A stretch of DNA of 36,076 nucleotides from Bacteroidales bacterium (GCA_016939365.1 JAFGHD010000151.1:1-36076); one strand, 5' to 3'; positions 261-34,938 are shown, counted from the first letter of the stretch. Program-made: numbers and translations. Notes: a model not told the origin generated them from the sequence alone.

Positions 261-3047
261 CTATTTGCCGGTGCGTTCGAATGTCTCCTCGACCTTCCTG
301 AAGAACTCCTCCCTGCTGAAAGGCTTGGGAATATAATCGTCCATCCCTGCATTGATGCATTCATCCCTGTCGGATTTCATGGCATAAGCTGTCAACGCGA
401 TAATAGGCACATGCTTTCCGGTTTCGATTTCACGTTTCCTGATCAGCCGGGTGGCTTCATAGCCGTCCATAACCGGCATCTGTACGTCCATGAGGATCAG
501 GTGATACTTTCCGGTATCGAATTCGTGGAGGGCATCCTTTCCATTGGACACCACCTTCAGTTTCCATCCCCTGGATTTGGCGAGTGCCTCGATCAGGAAC
601 TGATTGGCTTCATTGTCTTCAGCCAGCAAAATACTCAAATCTGAGAGTTTGCCGGGTTGCAGGTTTTCGGATGATTTTTCAGAGGATTCCATGATTGTCA
701 CTTTGGATATTTCCAGGGGTAGCCGAACCATGAAGGTACTCCCCTTTCCTTTTTCGCTTTCAACATCAACCGTTCCATTCAAAATCGATACCAGTTTCCG
801 GACAATGGTCAGTCCAAGTCCGACTCCCTTTTCCTTTTTTGTAAGATAGTCATCAAGTTGCCGGAATTCGTCGAAAATGGTGCCCTGCATTTCCCTGTCG
901 ATCCCGATACCGGTATCCCTGACATGAATATTTACTATGCAGCGATGGCTGCCTTCTTTTTCAGCACTGATATTCAACCGGATACTCCCTTTCTCGGTAA
1001 ACTTGACCGCATTACTGATCAGGTTGACCATGATCTGCTTCACTTTGTAGGGATCACCAACCAATGTGACATCATCCAGGCCTTCTGTTTTCAGTTTAAT
1101 ATCCAGCCCTTTCTGGTCGGTCTGCTTGTGGAAGTAACTGATGGTTTCCCTGGCCAGTTGAACCAGGTTGAATTCTGCCCGGTAGACCTTCATCACTCCG
1201 GATTCGATCCGTGAAAGATCCAGCAGATCATTGATCAGGTGCAACAGCTGATCGCCGGAATCGATGATAGTGTGTATCATTTCGAGTTTGTTCCGGTCAG
1301 ATTCCTGAAGCAGCAATATCTCCGAAAAGCCCAGTATGGCATGCAGAGGAGTCCGGATCTCATGACTCATATTGGCCAGGAACTGTGTTTTGGCACGGGA
1401 AGCCTCTTCGGCCTCCGTTTTGGCTTTTTTCAAATTTTCCTCAAATTCTTTCAATCCTGTGCTGTCATAGATCACTCCTTCCACAAATTCTGGCTTACCG
1501 CTTCTTCCTGAAAGATTCCGGACGACCTGTTTGACCCAGCGTATTTCCCCGTCTGACCGGATGATCCTGTATTCCTTCTCCAGGCTGATATCGGGTTTGA
1601 GGTTGATATCTCTGGTTTCCTCAATGAGGTTCGGTAGATCATCAGGGTGTATTACATCGCGCCAGTTCAGTGTGCCGGAAATGAAATCACACTCGCGGTA
1701 ACCGGTAATGGTTTCGACATTGCCATGGAAAAAGAACGGCCTGAATTCAAGGTCTCCGCGAAAAGCGATTCCATGGAAATTCCTAACAAATGAACGGTAT
1801 TTCGATTCGCTTTCCTTGAGTTTCTTTTCTATCTGGTAGCGTTTTTGCTCCAGTGACAACGCCTTGGCCAAAGTGGAAAGGATGCTGGTCTCCGTTGAAG
1901 AATATCCTCTTTCATGACAGGAGCCCACACCGATCCAACCGATCTTTTTTCCTGTGATGAATACCGGTTGGGAAGCCATGGACCTGACACCTGAATTCCT
2001 GACCAGGGGATCTGCCGAAAATGTGTCCTTCGAGTGCTCCACAAACCTTGGATATTCCTGCGCTCCTTCCTGATCCAGGAGGTAATGCAATACCTCGGAT
2101 AATGGCTGACCCGAATAATGAAACGGGGTATTGTAGCCCGAAATGGTGAACACCCGGTTACCGTTTTCCAGCTCGTTGTACATGGCAAAATCGGCCCTGA
2201 GTATTTCACACGCCTTCCTGACAATAATTTCCGTATTATGCTGCGGATCAATTCCCAGTTCAAGGAAAATGTCGTTGAGTTCAGAAATCTGCATTTCCGC
2301 CACCTTGCGTTCGGTAATATCCTCGACGGTCCCTTCGTAGTAAATAACGTTTCCCTTCTCATCCTTTTCAGCGCGTGCGCTTTCACGAATATAAATCTTT
2401 CTTTGGTCACGGGTCATCCAGAGCGATTCAAGCCCCCTGATCTCACCATTCTTTTCAATAGCTTCCTTGAAAGCCTTTCGCGTGTATTCAGGATCAAATC
2501 CTTCCTCTTCCAGATTCCTCAGGGCAATTTCATCAAAACCGGAATAACCAAGTATCTTGACCAGTGCAGGATTTGCCATGATAATCTCACCGGATGGTGT
2601 GGTGCGGTAAAGACCTATGGTCGCATTTTCGTATAGCGATCTGAACCTTTTCTCACTGTTGGTGAATTCTTCTTCAGTCTTTTTCGTCCGGCTGATATCG
2701 GTCAGCACCATGACAATTTCATGTTGGTCATATGCAGTTATGGACAAATGGAACCATTTCTGAAACTCAGGCTGAAAAAATTCCATGGAGATCCGTTCGC
2801 GGTTCCTGTATTTCAAAGGATCACTGCCCGATTTCTGTATGATGGCCGGTGCAAATCCAGGGATCAATGAATTCATTGAACGGCCATGCCATGGAGTATC
2901 CTGAAGATCAGTCAATTCGAGGAATTTCCTGTTTGCATCCAGCAGGATCATATCCCCGACATGCCCGGTTGAATCCACTACCAGTTGCAGGTAAGAAAAC
3001 CCATAGGGCAAATCATCAATCAAATACCTGTAATCCAAATTCTTCAT
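261..3047 (-). CDS. Hybrid sensor histidine kinase (PAS-PAS-GAF-PAS-HisKA-HATPase-REC)
   Basis: This 928-residue protein has no clear signal peptide or transmembrane segment, so it is probably a cytoplasmic sensor. In order: a divergent PAS-like region (about 1-120), a canonical PAS/PAC (about 128-250, ending in EDITERK), a GAF-like domain (about 260-415), a third PAS (about 420-545), a HisKA dimerisation domain with the phosphoacceptor at H562 (MSHEIRTP), a HATPase_c domain with N (NLISNAVKF), G1 (DTGIGI) and G2 (GVGLGL) boxes, and a receiver domain (about 800-922) with phosphoacceptor D854 (LMDVQMPVMDG) and the conserved KPF lysine. It should autophosphorylate and relay to its own receiver. 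There is no HPt domain or separate response regulator in the window, so the output is unknown. The signal is also unknown. The gene stands alone; the nearest neighbour upstream is pepE, 183 bp away. The family call is secure. Confidence 0.95.
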   Translation of the reverse strand: MKNLDYRYLIDDLPYGFSYLQLVVDSTGHVGDMILLDANRKFLELTDLQDTPWHGRSMNSLIPGFAPAIIQKSGSDPLKYRNRERISMEFFQPEFQKWFHLSITAYDQHEIVMVLTDISRTKKTEEEFTNSEKRFRSLYENATIGLYRTTPSGEIIMANPALVKILGYSGFDEIALRNLEEEGFDPEYTRKAFKEAIEKNGEIRGLESLWMTRDQRKIYIRESARAEKDEKGNVIYYEGTVEDITERKVAEMQISELNDIFLELGIDPQHNTEIIVRKACEILRADFAMYNELENGNRVFTISGYNTPFHYSGQPLSEVLHYLLDQEGAQEYPRFVEHSKDTFSADPLVRNSGVRSMASQPVFITGKKIGWIGVGSCHERGYSSTETSILSTLAKALSLEQKRYQIEKKLKESESKYRSFVRNFHGIAFRGDLEFRPFFFHGNVETITGYRECDFISGTLNWRDVIHPDDLPNLIEETRDINLKPDISLEKEYRIIRSDGEIRWVKQVVRNLSGRSGKPEFVEGVIYDSTGLKEFEENLKKAKTEAEEASRAKTQFLANMSHEIRTPLHAILGFSEILLLQESDRNKLEMIHTIIDSGDQLLHLINDLLDLSRIESGVMKVYRAEFNLVQLARETISYFHKQTDQKGLDIKLKTEGLDDVTLVGDPYKVKQIMVNLISNAVKFTEKGSIRLNISAEKEGSHRCIVNIHVRDTGIGIDREMQGTIFDEFRQLDDYLTKKEKGVGLGLTIVRKLVSILNGTVDVESEKGKGSTFMVRLPLEISKVTIMESSEKSSENLQPGKLSDLSILLAEDNEANQFLIEALAKSRGWKLKVVSNGKDALHEFDTGKYHLILMDVQMPVMDGYEATRLIRKREIETGKHVPIIALTAYAMKSDRDECINAGMDDYIPKPFSREEFFRKVEETFERTGK

Positions 3048-27390: not shown

Positions 27391-27822
27391 ATGTTACCAG
27401 TAATCAAGCAAGGCTGGAGATTTCCGCGACTGGCGGATGATTTTTTCGGGAGGGATTGGTTATCATCCTTTTTGGAAGACGAAGTCGGGATGACCACCCC
27501 TGCAGTCAACATCAACGAAGGCAAGGACCACTTCAGGATCGAACTGGCGGCACCCGGACTGGACAAGGAGGATTTCCGGATCTCGCTCGATCATAATGTA
27601 CTGACCATCTCTTCGGAGAAAAAAGAGGAGAAGACGCAGGACGATGACCAGATCACACGCCGCGAGTTCAGCTATTCTTCGTTCTCCCGCTCTTTCACTT
27701 TGCCGGAAGCTGTAAATCCGGAGAAAATCAAAGCGGAGCACAAGAACGGCATTCTCAGCATCGTCCTTCCGAAAAAGGATGAAGCCAAAGTAAAACCTGC
27801 CAGACAGATCAAAATTTCTTAA
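27391..27822 (+). CDS. Small heat shock protein, Hsp20/alpha-crystallin family (first copy)
   Basis: The 143-residue protein has the alpha-crystallin domain from about residue 35 to 135: PAVNINEGKDHFRIELAAPG, LDKEDFRISLDHNVLTISSE (EKKEEK follows), the REFSYSSFSRSFTLPEAVNP segment and the AEHKNGILSIVLPKK GxL motif. It should be an ATP-independent chaperone that holds unfolded proteins in the cytoplasm. It is preceded by a strong ribosome binding site and followed by a 13-bp terminator hairpin, then a second hsp20 gene. No CIRCE element or sigma-32 type promoter is evident by eye. Confidence 0.95.
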   Translation: MLPVIKQGWRFPRLADDFFGRDWLSSFLEDEVGMTTPAVNINEGKDHFRIELAAPGLDKEDFRISLDHNVLTISSEKKEEKTQDDDQITRREFSYSSFSRSFTLPEAVNPEKIKAEHKNGILSIVLPKKDEAKVKPARQIKIS

Positions 27823-27866: not shown

Positions 27867-27884
27867 TCAATGGAGGGAAAAGCC

Positions 27885-28301
27885 ATGTTGATCATCAGAA
27901 AACATTCCCTGGTCCCCGACTATGACACGGAGCGGGACGAGCTTTCGCGCTTTTTCGATGTACGGAAAACCATGTGCATGCCGGCCATCAATGTATATGA
28001 AAACGGTCAGGAGTACACCATTGAAGTAGCGGCACCAGGCCTTAAAAAGGAAGATTTCTCATTGGATATCGAGCGGGATATCATGGAAATTTCATCATCC
28101 CGTGAGATGGAGCAAACAGGGGACATGAAGGTGCTCAGGCAGGAGTTCTGTTACGAAGGATTCCGCAGGAAATTTGAAATTCCTGACAGTGTGGACCCCG
28201 ACCAGATCAATGCCACCTATGATGCAGGAATTCTCAGGATCATCCTGCCCAAGAAAGAAGAAGCCAGGGAAAAACCGCCCAGGACCATCGGGATATCCTG
28301 A
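27885..28301 (+). CDS. Small heat shock protein, Hsp20/alpha-crystallin family (second copy)
   Basis: The 138-residue protein has the same alpha-crystallin architecture as its upstream neighbour (PAINVYENGQEYTIEVAAPG, LKKEDFSLDIERDIMEISSS, QEFCYEGFRRKFEIPDSVDP, ATYDAGILRIILPKK), but with moderate identity, so it is a diverged paralogue. I choose ATG 27885, because GGAGGG at 27872-27877 is well placed as its Shine-Dalgarno; the alternative ATG at 27870 overlaps that site. Expression must read through the terminator upstream or use a promoter in or before it. A second terminator follows. Confidence 0.93.
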   Translation: MLIIRKHSLVPDYDTERDELSRFFDVRKTMCMPAINVYENGQEYTIEVAAPGLKKEDFSLDIERDIMEISSSREMEQTGDMKVLRQEFCYEGFRRKFEIPDSVDPDQINATYDAGILRIILPKKEEAREKPPRTIGIS

Positions 28302-28354: not shown

Positions 28355-28445
28355 TTCCCTGTAAATTTAATCCTCCGGCAAGAAAAGACCCGGGATCACG
28401 TTATAGTTGAGCAGCATTGGATCATCTGAAAAGCAAAACGATTTC

Positions 28446-29426
28446 ATGGAAGGGAAACCAAACCCTTATCTTCCCTGCGATCACTGCGGACATCTGAACC
28501 CGCTTTCTGAATACCTCATTTTCTGCAACCGCTGCGGAAAAAAGCTCGGGATAAATTACCAGGCTTGGGTCAGGGATCATCCCGGAGGCAGTTTCGTGGA
28601 TTTTGCCGCAAGGTACGGAGTGCTGCCCGGGGAAGGGAAAAAGGAATCACCGGGGCAGGCGTGGTTCCGCAGGAAGCCATCCGGCATGGCCGGTCTGGCA
28701 ATCATTGCAGCCGCATTGTTGATCACTGTTATTCTCGTCATGGGAATGACCGATATCCCTGACATCCTCAGGAGGGCCCTGTATAAAGACCTCAGCCAAC
28801 TGACCAGCCAGGAATGGAACAGGGTCATGCTGGATGACTTCGGGATGTCCTTTAAATCACCGATCACACTGAAGACAAAAAAAACTTCGTGGTTCAGGAT
28901 ACCGCATGACGAGGGCAGTCCGTTGCTCAGAGAAAGTCAGATGACAGGAAAAATCGGTAACCGCTACAGGATGGAAATACATTGTGCGGTATTTAATCCC
29001 GAAACTGTTCTGGTACATCCGGAGATGATAAAACAACTGATCCTGGGACTCAGGCAAAAGAGAGGCATTACCAGCGTCAACTTCTACCCGGAAAAGATAC
29101 ACATGCCCGGTAAGACGGGACACCTCTGCAAAGGTTCCTATTTATACCGCGGCCGGTTGATGCGTTCGTACCTCCTTGTGATCACACAGATGAACAGCTT
29201 GTGGATTATGCATATCTCCGCGGTTTTCCGCGATCCCAGCGGTCCTGAGATCGCCGAAAGGGTGCTCAGCTCACTCAGGATCACCGATCAGGAATTTGCA
29301 GGTACTCCGGAACCGGGGAACAGAAACCCCAGTGAATCTACCTGTTCCTCCAAACGGGCCATCTCCTGTGAACAATACGGAAATTCACCTGTTTTACTGG
29401 CGGGAAACATTTCCATCCTGAGATGA
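28446..29426 (+). CDS. Zinc-ribbon, single-pass membrane protein of unknown function
   Basis: The N-terminus (MEGKPNPYLPCDHCGHLNP, then FCNRCGKKL) is a four-cysteine zinc ribbon (CxxC-N-CxxC). Around residue 80-105 there is one transmembrane segment (MAGLAIIAAALLITVILVMG). The roughly 220-residue remainder is a mixed alpha/beta domain, probably on the other side of the membrane, that I cannot assign. The last 40 residues look disordered. ATG 28446 is preferred; a longer TTG-initiated frame from 28407 exists. The stop overlaps the next start (ATGA at 29423-29426), so this gene heads a tightly coupled three-gene operon. Confidence 0.75.
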   Translation: MEGKPNPYLPCDHCGHLNPLSEYLIFCNRCGKKLGINYQAWVRDHPGGSFVDFAARYGVLPGEGKKESPGQAWFRRKPSGMAGLAIIAAALLITVILVMGMTDIPDILRRALYKDLSQLTSQEWNRVMLDDFGMSFKSPITLKTKKTSWFRIPHDEGSPLLRESQMTGKIGNRYRMEIHCAVFNPETVLVHPEMIKQLILGLRQKRGITSVNFYPEKIHMPGKTGHLCKGSYLYRGRLMRSYLLVITQMNSLWIMHISAVFRDPSGPEIAERVLSSLRITDQEFAGTPEPGNRNPSESTCSSKRAISCEQYGNSPVLLAGNISILR

Positions 29427-30057: not shown

Positions 30058-31584
30058 TCAGTGTTCGCCTGATCCGGTCTCGCTGAATACCAGGGCCTCA
30101 TAAATAAACAATTCTGCTTCCTTCCATCCGTCCCAACCCAGGCCTGCCTTATCGCGAGCGCAATGCCCCAGAAATTCCTCCAGATTCCAGCCTGTTTCCG
30201 TTGCCACCTGGGGAAGGAATGTGCCTGATTGGTTTCCCTTACGGATGTATATACCATGCTTTCCGAGGATGATCCCGTCAACGGATGTGATCTTTCGCAA
30301 AGGTGTCAGAACGGATACTTCCACCACGATCTCGTCGAGTTCTTCGGGCATAACGGGATGAAAACGCATATCCTGTGTGGCTGCTGCAACAGATATCTGG
30401 CGAACCACCTGGTAAAGGGGCATCTCTGCATCAAAACGGCCAATGCAACCTCTCAGCTGCCCGTTCTTGTTCAGGGTAACGAAGGCCCCGCAGGGCTGTT
30501 TTATGGATTCTGAAAAATCATGATCCTTCACTTCGCTCAGATTTCCGGTTTTGACGACCTCCTCCACCGCCTGCCTGGCCAGTGCAAGAAGCTGCTCCTT
30601 ATCATCAGGTTCCAGGTGAAATCCGGTATCCTCCTGATCTCCCGCACCTGTAAGCACGATTGACCAATAACCTACCACACGACCCTTATCGCCCATCGGA
30701 ATATCGCCGGAGTTCCGGTACCGGACAGTCTGAAACCTCGTCCCCGGATCGTTTTCAAACATATACATCAGTGTGGCGATGGAACTCCAACCACATGCCC
30801 GTGTCGCCAGTCCCGGCACCTTCCGGTTGGAAGGATCGCTGATGACTTCAAGAAATTGCAAAGGATTGCCGGATTCAATGGCACGTGCGGTGGCCTTATC
30901 AAGCGCAGCAGCATCCTGATGCTCCGGGTAGTGCGAAAAATCAGAGCTGATCACAAAAAAATTCTCCTCTTTCACGAAAGGAAGCAGTGCATCTGCTATC
31001 TCACTGCACATCTCCGGCGACTGACTTCCGATCACCACGGGGATGATCTGTAAGTCTTCTCCCAGCCGGTACTGCAGAAAGGGTAGCTGAACCTCAATGC
31101 TGTGCTCCCGTAAATGGACTTCCGGCCGGAAGGTGAAACAACTGTTCTTCTCAATAAGCTCCCTGCAGAGATTCAGATTGACCTTCACCGTTCCCAGAGG
31201 AGTTTCATAATGACCCGCACAATAGATGGATGCTCCTTCGAACAGGGTTGTATGGCTTGAGGCAATGATGAACACGTTCTCATATTTTCGCTGCGGATCC
31301 ATCTGGTTGAAGCTGGAAGCCGCGATGACTCCGGAATAGACATATCCGGCGTGCGGTGAGATGACAGCCCTGACATCCTTAAAGCGGGCTTCATCTGCCT
31401 GTGAAAACAAATTCCTAAGCTCTTCCTTCAACTGATCAGCCGAACCGGGATAAAACTGACCGGCAACGGCGGGCTTCCGGTTGGCCAGTTCCACATCACC
31501 CTGCTGTCCGGCACGGTCCTGTGCAGAACAACCGCACGACAACAGAAAACCCACAAACAGCATGACACCTTTCCTGAAGCTCAT
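30058..31584 (-). CDS. AmmeMemoRadiSam system protein B-A fusion (Memo + AMMECR1), predicted lipoprotein
   Basis: The 508-residue protein joins two normally separate or fused families. Residues about 36-312 are a Memo domain with all expected metal/active-site residues: H78 (SPHAGYVYSG), H111 (ASSHT), H161 (REHSIEVQ), H218 (SDFSHY) and C264 (TRACG). Residues about 322-505 are an AMMECR1 domain with the invariant LRGCIG motif at 377-382. The N-terminus MSFRKGVMLFVGFLLSCGCS is a signal peptide with a plausible lipobox Cys (C17 or C19), implying export. Memo proteins are related to extradiol dioxygenases; the biochemical role of this system is unresolved. It is divergent from the membrane SpeE-like gene and close to the radical SAM member. 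Confidence 0.93.
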   Translation of the reverse strand: MSFRKGVMLFVGFLLSCGCSAQDRAGQQGDVELANRKPAVAGQFYPGSADQLKEELRNLFSQADEARFKDVRAVISPHAGYVYSGVIAASSFNQMDPQRKYENVFIIASSHTTLFEGASIYCAGHYETPLGTVKVNLNLCRELIEKNSCFTFRPEVHLREHSIEVQLPFLQYRLGEDLQIIPVVIGSQSPEMCSEIADALLPFVKEENFFVISSDFSHYPEHQDAAALDKATARAIESGNPLQFLEVISDPSNRKVPGLATRACGWSSIATLMYMFENDPGTRFQTVRYRNSGDIPMGDKGRVVGYWSIVLTGAGDQEDTGFHLEPDDKEQLLALARQAVEEVVKTGNLSEVKDHDFSESIKQPCGAFVTLNKNGQLRGCIGRFDAEMPLYQVVRQISVAAATQDMRFHPVMPEELDEIVVEVSVLTPLRKITSVDGIILGKHGIYIRKGNQSGTFLPQVATETGWNLEEFLGHCARDKAGLGWDGWKEAELFIYEALVFSETGSGEH

Positions 31585-31590
31585 TTTTAC

Positions 31591-31620
31591 TATTTTTAGT
31601 GATCCGTTACTTCAAAAATA
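31591..31620. promoter_or_regulatory. Divergent promoters between the Memo-AMMECR1 and SpeE-like genes
   Basis: In the 40-bp gap, TATTTTTA (31591-31598, plus strand, one mismatch to TAnnTTTG) and TATTTTTG (31620-31613, minus strand, exact) face opposite directions. Each lies 27-29 bp before its gene's start (31625 and 31584). The overlap suggests coordinated or mutually exclusive firing. Confidence 0.5.
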
Positions 31621-31624
31621 ATAA

Positions 31625-33745
31625 ATGTTATCCAAATCCCTCACCTTCAGAACAACCGCATTTTTTCTGGGATTCTCAACCATGATCACCCAGGTGGTCA
31701 TGCTCAGGGAGTTCCTGACCGTTTTCCTGGGGAATGAGCTGGTCATCGGGGTGGTGATGGCTGTGTGGATGTTGCTGACCGGACTGGGGGCCCAGGCAGG
31801 CCGTTTGATCAGAACAGGCCGGCCGGACAGAATCATTTCATGGTATTTCCTTTTGACCGGGCTGCTGCCCCTGCCTATCTATGCTTCGTTGCATCTGATC
31901 CAGCACAGGATGTTTCCTTCGGGGGTCATGACAGGTCTGACAGAGGCACTGCTGCTGTCGGTGATCCTGCTGCTGCCCTTTTGCCTGATGAGCGGCGCCT
32001 TTTTTACATGGCTGAGCGCGCGCTGGTCAGAAGGAAGCGATGATAACCGCATCTCCAGCACATATGGGCTGGAATCCGCCGGTGCCGTCGCAGGAGGGTT
32101 CATCCTCTCCATTTTCCTTTTCATCATGAAGGGAACCTTCCCTCTGCTGGTCATGCTGGCCATGATCAACCTGGCAATGCTTTTTATCCTGTCGGGACTT
32201 CCATGGAAAATCGCAGCTGCCATTCTCACCGCGGGTTTACTCGCAACTGCAATGCAGGTGCCTCTGGATCTGCTCATTAAAAAAAACAAGTACCCCGGGC
32301 AGGAGATACTCAGAATGGATTATTCCCCTTACGGGGATATCATCGCGACCGGATATCTTGGACAGATCAATTTCTACGAAAACGGCACCCCACTGTTTTC
32401 AACGGCCGATATAGTATCGGCGGAAGAGAGTGTTCACTATGCCCTTTCCCAGCATCCCCATCCCTCCAGTGTGCTCCTGATCTCAGGCGGCACGGCAGGA
32501 TTAATGAACGAAATCCTGAAATATCCGGTCACCCGGATCGATTATGCTGAAACAAACCCTGTCCTCATCGAGACCATGTTGTCGTTGGGGATCATTGACG
32601 AAAAGGATGAAAGGCTGAACCTGATCGGATCTGACCCCCGTCTGCATATAAAAAAAACATCCACCCGATATGATGCCGTTCTTGTTCAGGCCTCTGAGCC
32701 CTCCAACGCACAGGCCAACCGTTTTTACACATCCGAGTTCTTTTCAGGGCTGAAGGAGAAGATGAACAATGAGGCCGTAGTATCTGTGGGATTCATGCCC
32801 ACATCCAACTACATCAGCAGGGAAACCATTGAAATTCATTCCCGCCTCTACAGCACGCTGGCACCATACTTCCGGCATATACTCATTGTGCCGGGCCACA
32901 AATTCTATTACCTGGCTTCAGATGCGCCACTCCGGATCAATGTTCCGCAACTGCTGAATGAAAAAGGCATCGCCACGGTTTACCTGAATTCCGATTACAT
33001 CGATACACTGGACCTGAGTCGCCGTTCGGAAGAGATCCATTCATCGCTGAAAAGGGATGTTGACGCGAACAGGGATTTCAGGCCCATCGGCTATTACCTG
33101 CAGCTGCAATACTGGCTCTCATTGTTCAGTGCCTCCGGCCAGATATGGATATGGATACTGCTGATATTGCTGGTTTATTACCTGGTCAGGATGAGAGCAC
33201 CTGATCACAGTCTGTTCGTCTCGGGTTTCACCGCTTCTTCACTGGAAATCATGCTGCTGATCGCTTTCCAGATGATTTACGGGGTGGTATACCAGGCTAC
33301 AGGTTTCATCGTCATGCTTTTCATGACCGGATTGGCCCTGGGCTCTCTGGTTCTTGCGAAAAAAATGAAAAGTGACAAATCCTCTCTGGCCCGGACACAG
33401 TATCTTTTCGGTGCATTTTCCATTACCGCAGCCATGCTGATGGTTGTGCTTCAAAGCATTTCCGTGCATACGGGAATGGTCTATTCCGTCATATTCGTCC
33501 TTGCAGTAATGTCCGGAGTGTTCACCGGGATCATTTTTTCATTGACCACCCGTTTGAAAAAAGGCACATATAAGACAACAGCGGCAGCCCTGTATGAATC
33601 GGACCTGGCCGGATCGGCTGCCGGTGCCCTGGTCACGACTGTCTACCTGATCCCGCTGCTGGGATTCATCAGGGTGGGATTCTTCCTGATGCTGGTGAAT
33701 ATCCTTGTGGCGGCGGGTGTCTCCTTCGTATTGAAAAAAACTTAA
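31625..33745 (+). CDS. Polytopic membrane protein with degenerate spermidine synthase-like domain
   Basis: The 706-residue protein has about six membrane helices (residues 5-220), a soluble SpeE/methyltransferase-like domain (about 235-490) and about six more helices (500-705). Fused membrane spermidine-synthase-like proteins of this plan are known but uncharacterised. The soluble domain keeps the fold pattern (LLISGGTAGLMNEIL, DYAETNPVLIE, DAVLVQASEPSNAQANRFYT) yet lacks the signature residues: the GGGDGG loop reads SGGTAG (287-292) and the catalytic DxxDP region reads QASEP (355-359). Polyamine aminopropyl transfer is therefore doubtful. It lies between the two AmmeMemoRadiSam genes and is 26 bp upstream of the radical SAM gene, so it is probably part of that system. 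Confidence 0.8.
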   Translation: MLSKSLTFRTTAFFLGFSTMITQVVMLREFLTVFLGNELVIGVVMAVWMLLTGLGAQAGRLIRTGRPDRIISWYFLLTGLLPLPIYASLHLIQHRMFPSGVMTGLTEALLLSVILLLPFCLMSGAFFTWLSARWSEGSDDNRISSTYGLESAGAVAGGFILSIFLFIMKGTFPLLVMLAMINLAMLFILSGLPWKIAAAILTAGLLATAMQVPLDLLIKKNKYPGQEILRMDYSPYGDIIATGYLGQINFYENGTPLFSTADIVSAEESVHYALSQHPHPSSVLLISGGTAGLMNEILKYPVTRIDYAETNPVLIETMLSLGIIDEKDERLNLIGSDPRLHIKKTSTRYDAVLVQASEPSNAQANRFYTSEFFSGLKEKMNNEAVVSVGFMPTSNYISRETIEIHSRLYSTLAPYFRHILIVPGHKFYYLASDAPLRINVPQLLNEKGIATVYLNSDYIDTLDLSRRSEEIHSSLKRDVDANRDFRPIGYYLQLQYWLSLFSASGQIWIWILLILLVYYLVRMRAPDHSLFVSGFTASSLEIMLLIAFQMIYGVVYQATGFIVMLFMTGLALGSLVLAKKMKSDKSSLARTQYLFGAFSITAAMLMVVLQSISVHTGMVYSVIFVLAVMSGVFTGIIFSLTTRLKKGTYKTTAAALYESDLAGSAAGALVTTVYLIPLLGFIRVGFFLMLVNILVAAGVSFVLKKT

Positions 33746-33771
33746 TTTTACAGGGTACTCATACCGTAACG

Positions 33772-34938
33772 ATGACATCCGGATTTTCCAAACGGAAATT
33801 TATCAAAACGACCCTTGCAGGGATCGGTGGGTTGGGGTATCTGCTGAACAGCCCGTTTACGTCAAGAGCTTCGGAATGGCTCCTTGGAGACCCAACAGGC
33901 GCAGGTCAGACCGGAGGCCTGTGGAAATGGAGCCGGGAAGCCATGTTCTACGTACAGACACCCAAAGGCATCAAATGCCAGATATGTCCGAACAACTGTG
34001 TGCTCAAACCGGGAGAAACAGGTGATTGCCGCACCAGGAAATTCATTGATTCGAAACTTTACACCATTGCGTACGGAAACCCATGTGCCGTTCATGAGGA
34101 TCCCATCGAAAAAAAACCACTTTATCATTTCCTGCCGGGCAGCCGGGCATTCAGCATCGCCACAGCAGGATGCAACCTGTCATGTCTCAATTGCCAGAAC
34201 TGGGATATTTCCCAGTCCAGTCCGGAGCAGACCCGGAACTTCGACCTCATGCCCGAAGCAGTCGTAGAACAATGCCTTGCCAGCCATTGCGAATCAATAG
34301 CCTACACGTACTCTGATCCGGTGGCTTTTTATGAGTATACACATGACACAGCTGCGCTGGCCAGAGAGAAAGGCATTTTCAACATCCTGGTCTCTGCCGG
34401 TTATATCCATGAAGGACCCCTTCGCGAATGGTGCAGGTACATTGACGCAGCCAATATCGACCTGAAATCGTTCAGAAATGAAATATATGAAATGCTGAAC
34501 GCCGGGACACTGGAACCTGTGCTGAACACATTGAAAATACTGAAAGAAGAAGGTATATGGCTTGAAATCACGAATCTGATCGTGCCAGGCTGGACCGATG
34601 ATCTGGATATGATCCGCGAAATGTGTGAATGGCTTTTCCGGAACGGTTTTTCGGATTCCCCCCTGCATTTCAGCAGGTTTTATCCACAGTATAAGCTTAC
34701 CAACCTGCCGGCCACACCCACCCCGGTGCTCGAAAAAGCAAGGGATATTGCCATATCCGAAGGAATAAAATATGTATATATAGGAAATGTTCCCGGGAAT
34801 GATGCAGAGAACACATTCTGCCCGGAATGCAACAGGATGATTGTCGAGAGAAAAGGATTCCGCATCCTTTCGAACCATATTTCCCAAGGGAGGTGTTCTT
34901 TCTGCGGCGCAGAGATCGCCGGAAGATGGAATAAATAA
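33772..34938 (+). CDS. AmmeMemoRadiSam system radical SAM enzyme with Tat-like signal
   Basis: The 388-residue protein has the radical SAM CxxxCxxC motif at C134-C138-C141 (AGCNLSCLNCQNWD), preceded by a cysteine-rich N-terminal block (C69, C72, C76, C86) and followed by a C-terminal CPEC/CSFC pair (C350, C353, C375, C378) that could bind zinc or a further cluster. Together with PLYHFLPGS and the YTYSDPVAFYEYT stretch this is the PflA-related third member of the AmmeMemoRadiSam system. The N-terminus reads FSKRKFIKT followed by a glycine-rich hydrophobic core and an SRA cleavage-like site, i.e. a KR-type Tat signal. Start at 33772 is required for it. Substrate unknown. Confidence 0.93.
   Translation: MTSGFSKRKFIKTTLAGIGGLGYLLNSPFTSRASEWLLGDPTGAGQTGGLWKWSREAMFYVQTPKGIKCQICPNNCVLKPGETGDCRTRKFIDSKLYTIAYGNPCAVHEDPIEKKPLYHFLPGSRAFSIATAGCNLSCLNCQNWDISQSSPEQTRNFDLMPEAVVEQCLASHCESIAYTYSDPVAFYEYTHDTAALAREKGIFNILVSAGYIHEGPLREWCRYIDAANIDLKSFRNEIYEMLNAGTLEPVLNTLKILKEEGIWLEITNLIVPGWTDDLDMIREMCEWLFRNGFSDSPLHFSRFYPQYKLTNLPATPTPVLEKARDIAISEGIKYVYIGNVPGNDAENTFCPECNRMIVERKGFRILSNHISQGRCSFCGAEIAGRWNK

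Follow-up and report, generated by a model that had tools for sequence, protein, structure and literature searches.

Three neighbouring genes of a Bacteroidales genome (GCA_016939365.1) probably encode an AmmeMemoRadiSam system that acts outside the cytoplasm, with a membrane protein as its supply or docking unit. They lie in the window, that is, the whole 36,076-nucleotide stretch of DNA that was analysed (contig C178), and their features are collected in Table 1. Export of the module proteins is well supported by comparison with their homologues, and we infer how the exported enzyme might be supplied. For its chemistry a radical SAM enzyme requires SAM and a strong reductant, and both are found in the cytoplasm; we know of no established extracytoplasmic radical SAM enzyme, and none was found in a literature search. 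The locus raises the question of how exported radical SAM chemistry would get its SAM and electrons. Memo and AMMECR1 are conserved as far as humans, to our knowledge without a known reaction, and the literature search returned no activity for the AmmeMemoRadiSam system. An exported branch, which would limit the substrate to the cell envelope, may give a fresh handle on their function.

Table 1. Predicted features of the exported AmmeMemoRadiSam locus (positions counted from the first nucleotide of the window).
Feature	Position	Strand	Source
Memo-AMMECR1 fusion, 508 aa, predicted lipoprotein (AmmeMemoRadiSam proteins B + A)	30058..31584	-	TIGR04336, TIGR04335
AMMECR1 domain, residues 334-500, with LRGCIG (377-382)	30085..30585	-	PF01871
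Memo domain, residues 37-309, with H78, H111, C264	30658..31476	-	PF01875
Predicted signal peptide of the fusion, residues 1-19; h-region VMLFVGFLL, lipobox-like SCG followed by C19	31528..31584	-	
14-TM membrane protein with inserted SpeE-fold domain, 706 aa	31625..33745	+	PF01564, hydropathy, AlphaFold2
N-terminal membrane half: 6-TM repeat A + linker TM7, residues 1-214	31625..32266	+	
SpeE-like domain, residues 215-504, predicted outside the membrane	32267..33136	+	PF01564, Foldseek
C-terminal membrane half: linker TM8 + 6-TM repeat B, residues 505-706	33137..33745	+	
AmmeMemoRadiSam radical-SAM enzyme, 388 aa, predicted Tat substrate	33772..34938	+	TIGR04337
Tat-type motif S-K-R-K-F-I-K, residues 6-12, then hydrophobic stretch	33787..33807	+	
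CxxxCxxC cluster motif, residues 134-141	34171..34194	+	

All three open reading frames are present where a sequence-only reading of the window had placed them. The fusion and membrane-protein genes are divergent, with start codons 40 bp apart, and the radical-SAM gene begins 26 bp after the membrane-protein gene. As that reading had it, Memo and AMMECR1 are joined in one protein (PF01875, 203 bits; PF01871, 173 bits), which matches TIGR04336 at 251 bits (cut-off 26) and TIGR04335 at 162 bits (cut-off 99); the enzyme matches TIGR04337 at 363.6 bits (cut-off 220). With all three models above cut-off and the motifs conserved, the locus belongs to the known AmmeMemoRadiSam system. It differs from the ordinary form in that proteins A and B are fused into a predicted exported lipoprotein, that the enzyme bears a Tat-type signal, and that a 14-TM SpeE-like partner is present. 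The ordinary form is represented by cytoplasmic paralogues in the same genome, namely a Memo protein of 284 aa and a second radical-SAM enzyme, both of which begin at the domain without any extension. These signal-less paralogues serve as an internal control for the signals.

The N-terminus of the enzyme reads MTSGFSKRKFIKTTLAGIGGLGYLL. The Tat-like signal noticed earlier in it is indeed there, and equivalent signals were found in dozens of homologues. Of the matched homologue ORFs (near-duplicate loci counted), 53 have KR and 33 have RR at the motif position; KR is typical of Bacteroidota, and outside this phylum the pair is mostly the canonical RR. The curated Tat model TIGR01409 did not match the window's enzyme, a KR variant; homologue L122 passes it with 21.4 bits against a cut-off of 16.7, and L111, L134 and L150 fall just short. 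A search for tat genes in the host genome, as had been proposed, found TatC encoded on contig C8 (E 2.9e-66). In L111 the module itself adjoins tatC (PF00902, E 2e-55) and a TatA-like ORF, the latter judged by eye.

It might be argued that the enzyme is only tethered by an uncleaved N-terminal helix, its catalytic domain staying in the cytoplasm close to SAM and ferredoxin. The KR rather than RR motif of most Bacteroidota would fit such an arrangement, as would the cytoplasmic location of SAM and of low-potential reductant. However, the Tat pathway tolerates lysine at the first motif position, TtrB being an example (PMC1182353), and the other phyla mostly carry the canonical RR, with L122 matching TIGR01409. 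The position of tatC beside the module in L111, the signal peptides of the partners and the predicted outside location of the SpeE domain also speak against tethering. In addition, the enzyme of L046 has a positively charged N-terminus followed by a single hydrophobic helix, which predicts a C-out anchor. It therefore seems quite unlikely that the catalytic domain is held on the cytoplasmic side.

Several loci vary in their enzyme genes. In L045 a signal-less radical-SAM copy (321-1346, minus strand) stands directly beside a Tat-type copy, which suggests cytoplasmic and exported versions of the enzyme in one locus. L053 (7952-11775, minus strand) has three radical-SAM genes in a row, all with RR-type Tat signals, beside one membrane SpeE-like gene. 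In L137-L152 (Planctomycetota and relatives) the segment between Tat signal and core is often longer than in Bacteroidota.

The fusion also carries the signal peptide with lipobox-like end that had been proposed for it, at a position repeated in dozens of homologues; C19 is kept in 22 of 37 aligned fusions. At loci with the membrane gene, a hydrophobic signal segment is found on every intact Memo N-terminus (L095 and L108, in which the ORF runs past the contig end, were left out of this judgement). The segment is absent from 13 Memo proteins at loci without the membrane gene. L126, L127 and L157 depart from this pattern: their Memo carries a signal, their enzyme does not, and no membrane gene was seen in the fetched stretch. 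A search for the same locus without signals, suggested with the original claim, came out in favour of export: where the membrane gene is present, the two soluble partners both bear signals, and at loci without it such signals are nearly always absent. Shared by dozens of homologues at one and the same position and missing from the cytoplasmic paralogues, the predicted export signals appear to go far beyond what chance would give.

The same genome encodes a third, divergent Memo protein of 369 aa (G000:C88:1533-2234, minus strand; locus L003), which starts MKNRDLGKTGIRIIIIFMITSCQE and has a lipoprotein-like signal. Memo matches comparable to it in length and score were seen in at least eight relatives, and L119 has a 375-aa ORF similar to it 4.5 kb from the module.

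The association of the signals with the SpeE-like gene, which the sequence-only reading had proposed to check, was followed across 60 order-level genomes over 59 genera, of which 32 (the window's own included) have a TIGR04337 protein above cut-off. Enzyme N-termini were read from the fetched loci; for G004 and G033, the lack of an N-terminal extension was taken from open-frame length. A phylum-wide search, in which N-termini were not inspected, was left out of the statistics. An export-type N-terminus is present on the enzyme in 19 of the 32 genomes, 18 being Tat-like and one (L046, which had carried a Tat label from the motif script) a simple membrane anchor. The full-length membrane protein was found in all 19 of these genomes vs none of the 13 without the signal (Fisher p 2.9e-9 over the 32 genomes, shared ancestry being ignored). 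In G007, G044, G047 and G058 the membrane gene is not adjacent to the Tat enzyme and was located at another site of that genome. In the tree of the radical-SAM enzymes, 7 changes of the Tat label are needed, vs 34 in shuffles; the phylogenetically independent pairs were concordant in most random pairings and, numbering 4, are too few for significance. Counted by locus, with contig-edge loci lacking the membrane gene set aside, 66 have both Tat signal and membrane gene, 26 neither, 6 the Tat signal only and 1 the membrane gene only. The last is the second, signal-less enzyme copy of L045 beside its Tat copy.

The membrane protein had been described as having 12 helices. Hydropathy and the AlphaFold2 model (mean pLDDT 90.3, pTM 0.90) instead give seven TM segments, the SpeE-like domain and seven more, hence 14. 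When the two repeats were compared by hhalign, they matched over 181 columns with 98% probability (E 3e-13), which indicates that the core is a duplicated 6-TM unit; the two extra helices, TM7 and TM8, would have moved the inserted domain to the other side of the membrane. With the N-terminus taken as inside, K and R average 16.6 in predicted inside loops vs 3.5 outside, and the positive-inside excess is seen in 49 of 49 homologues. From the 7+7 parity and this charge bias the SpeE-like domain is predicted to lie outside; on the same two features, twelve helices with a cytoplasmic SpeE domain were rejected.

In fold, the inserted domain matches SpeE (Foldseek, 1uir, E 4.1e-11), and its Foldseek matches are aminopropyltransferases. 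The membrane protein could accordingly be imagined as an outward-facing aminopropyltransferase of polyamine synthesis that merely shares the locus, since it has the fold and sequence similarity and since 47 of 49 homologues retain E309 and D337, which are aligned with residues at the adenosyl site of SpeE. However, it falls well short of all the SpeE equivalog cut-offs, scoring 56 bits where TIGR00417 requires 249.55. The acidic residue of the GGGDG-type motif is replaced at position 291 by S in 33 and by A in 8 of the 49 (the window protein reads GGTAG), and position 355, that of the catalytic Asp of SpeE, is Q in the window protein; 26 of the 49 have N there, and only 11 have D. A classical spermidine synthase was rejected on these scores and residues, and we consider it very improbable that polyamine synthesis of any outward-facing kind is the role of the protein. 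With adenosyl positions kept and acidic residues of the aminopropyl side changed, the domain probably binds an adenosyl-type ligand outside the cell membrane instead. The membrane-bound spermidine synthase-like proteins PRK03612 / NF002956 share TM segments and a SpeE-fold domain with it (partial match, 103 bits); in contrast to them, the window protein is far under the equivalog cut-off of 472, has TM repeats flanking the domain and has changed acidic residues in the active site. A shorter membrane SpeE-like protein is encoded elsewhere in the genome (G000:C63:16106-17260, plus strand); its open frame spans 522 aa and scores 87 bits against the profile of the module's protein, and it has no adjacent radical-SAM gene of the TIGR04337 family.

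As a source of electrons, Rnf had been considered because rnfA was thought to lie 1 kb downstream. No PF02508 match is present in the window, which is the whole contig; the Rnf-Nqr genes of the genome are on contigs C28 and C101 only. The idea is thus left without positional support, and Rnf was rejected as a nearby donor. A better lead is given by electron-transfer domains fused to homologues of the membrane protein. In L133 (labelled proteobacterium) and L134 (labelled Deltaproteobacteria) a Fer4_5 domain is fused to it (E 9e-9 and 3.5e-12), continuing past its end, and in L143 the next gene after the module encodes a Fer4_5 polyferredoxin. This recalls the NapH/NosR-type iron-sulfur proteins of membranes (PF12801, Fer4_5), from which the window's membrane protein differs in having no Fer4_5; it carries no electron-transfer extension. 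In 21 Bacteroidales homologues the membrane protein begins with a three-TM domain bearing three invariant His, possibly a haem domain. Against Pfam and PDB folds this domain gave no significant match (DUF4405, E 0.5), and cytochrome b was not established as its identity. Among genes adjoining the module, electron-transfer genes were found only in L143 and, weakly, in L129, where a small preceding gene resembles cytochrome b subunits. From these recurrent fusions and neighbours with Fe-S or haem-like domains, electron supply across the membrane is proposed.

The arrangement that we consider probable is as follows. The radical-SAM enzyme would fold and gain its iron-sulfur cluster in the cytoplasm and then be exported folded via Tat, as its homologous signals predict, and the Memo-AMMECR1 fusion would leave by Sec and be anchored as a lipoprotein. 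The membrane protein would consist of a 12-TM, two-repeat transporter-like core and two extra helices that set the SpeE-fold domain, probably binding an adenosyl ligand, on the same outer face; it would most likely supply and dock the exported enzyme. Reducing equivalents may be brought across by the membrane protein, certain lineages using Fe-S or haem-like domains that are fused to it or encoded next to it and others a separate partner, and/or the protein may move SAM or its nucleoside products across the membrane. The substrate should then be an envelope molecule, such as a lipid, a glycan precursor or an exported protein. The earlier proposal of chemistry located at the membrane or outside it has strong comparative support, export being a prediction from sequence.

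Whether the enzyme would perform true radical SAM catalysis outside the membrane is a further point. The Memo site residues, LRGCIG and the CxxxCxxC cysteines are all intact, as had been claimed. None of the homologues compared, 84 of the exported and 39 of the cytoplasmic class, lacks C134, C138 or C141; retention of CxxxCxxC in all exported enzymes argues for a working radical-SAM core. An N-terminal Cys group (69, 72, 76, 86) and two C-terminal CxxC pairs (350/353, 375/378) are also nearly always present, and C105 (93%), C285 (94%) and C173 (82%) characterise the exported class but not the cytoplasmic one. The closest radical-SAM relatives of known function and structure are pyruvate formate-lyase activating enzyme and other glycyl-radical activases (TIGR02493, 54.7 bits; PDB 3c8f). 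The activases are cytoplasmic; unlike them, the window enzyme is far under their cut-offs and has a Tat-type N-terminus and extra Cys groups. Catalysis outside, with the membrane protein supplying SAM, exchanging nucleoside products and giving low-potential electrons, either itself or by way of fused Fe-S or haem domains, for an envelope substrate, is put forward tentatively, as a real possibility.

Among 37 aligned sequences of the fusion, none lacks H78 or H111, 35 keep C264, and in the AMMECR1 part R378 and C380 are invariant (37 of 37). The three Memo residues match H49, H81 and C244, the iron ligands of human MEMO1, which binds iron and for which dioxygenase activity was not found (PMC11081632). 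In an oxygen-prediction study, AMMECR1 was the highest-weighted anaerobe-associated Pfam listed, occurring in 50.7% of anaerobes and 3.4% of aerobes (PMC13386939); for most prokaryotes this speaks against a role as an O2-dependent dioxygenase. Another reading is that the exported enzyme does no radical SAM chemistry, its cluster serving structure, metal or redox sensing and Memo being an extracytoplasmic iron-binding protein. The iron binding of MEMO1 without a dioxygenase activity would agree with this, as would the lack of any SAM source that we know of outside the cytoplasm. The invariance of CxxxCxxC across the exported members, from which a catalytic core is argued to be retained, and the other family residues conserved in both exported and cytoplasmic classes make it unlikely.

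In a scan of a genome collection, the module was found in MAGs of Bacteroidales, Deltaproteobacteria, Planctomycetota, Sumerlaeota and Verrucomicrobia, and in MAGs labelled DPANN archaea (label as given). The order Memo-membrane-enzyme, co-directional, occurs 30 times, the divergent order of the window 17 times, membrane-enzyme-Memo twice and Memo-enzyme-membrane once, plus two variants, so the association of the three genes outlasts rearrangement. No conserved fourth gene was found in the module, and recurrent flanking genes track lineage. All parts belong to known families; no description of the exported form with a membrane partner was found in a literature search largely limited to papers outside subscription. 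Conservation of the predicted exported module in several phyla, together with the signal-less paralogues, makes the question of extracytoplasmic radical SAM chemistry testable.

Other ORFs were noted near the module. A methionine sulfoxide reductase B-like ORF, judged by eye, occurs in the same stretch in L058, L103, L109, L121 and L125; that of L121 starts 14 bp past the module, with an N-terminus that resembles a signal. In the window, a 339-aa ORF at 28407-29426 (plus strand) opens like a zinc ribbon (PCDHCGHLNPLSEYLIFCNRCGKK), seems to have a single TM helix, and gave no match in Pfam or NCBIfam. Two adjoining ORFs at 27391-27822 and 27870-28301 (plus strand) resemble Hsp20-type small heat-shock proteins by eye.
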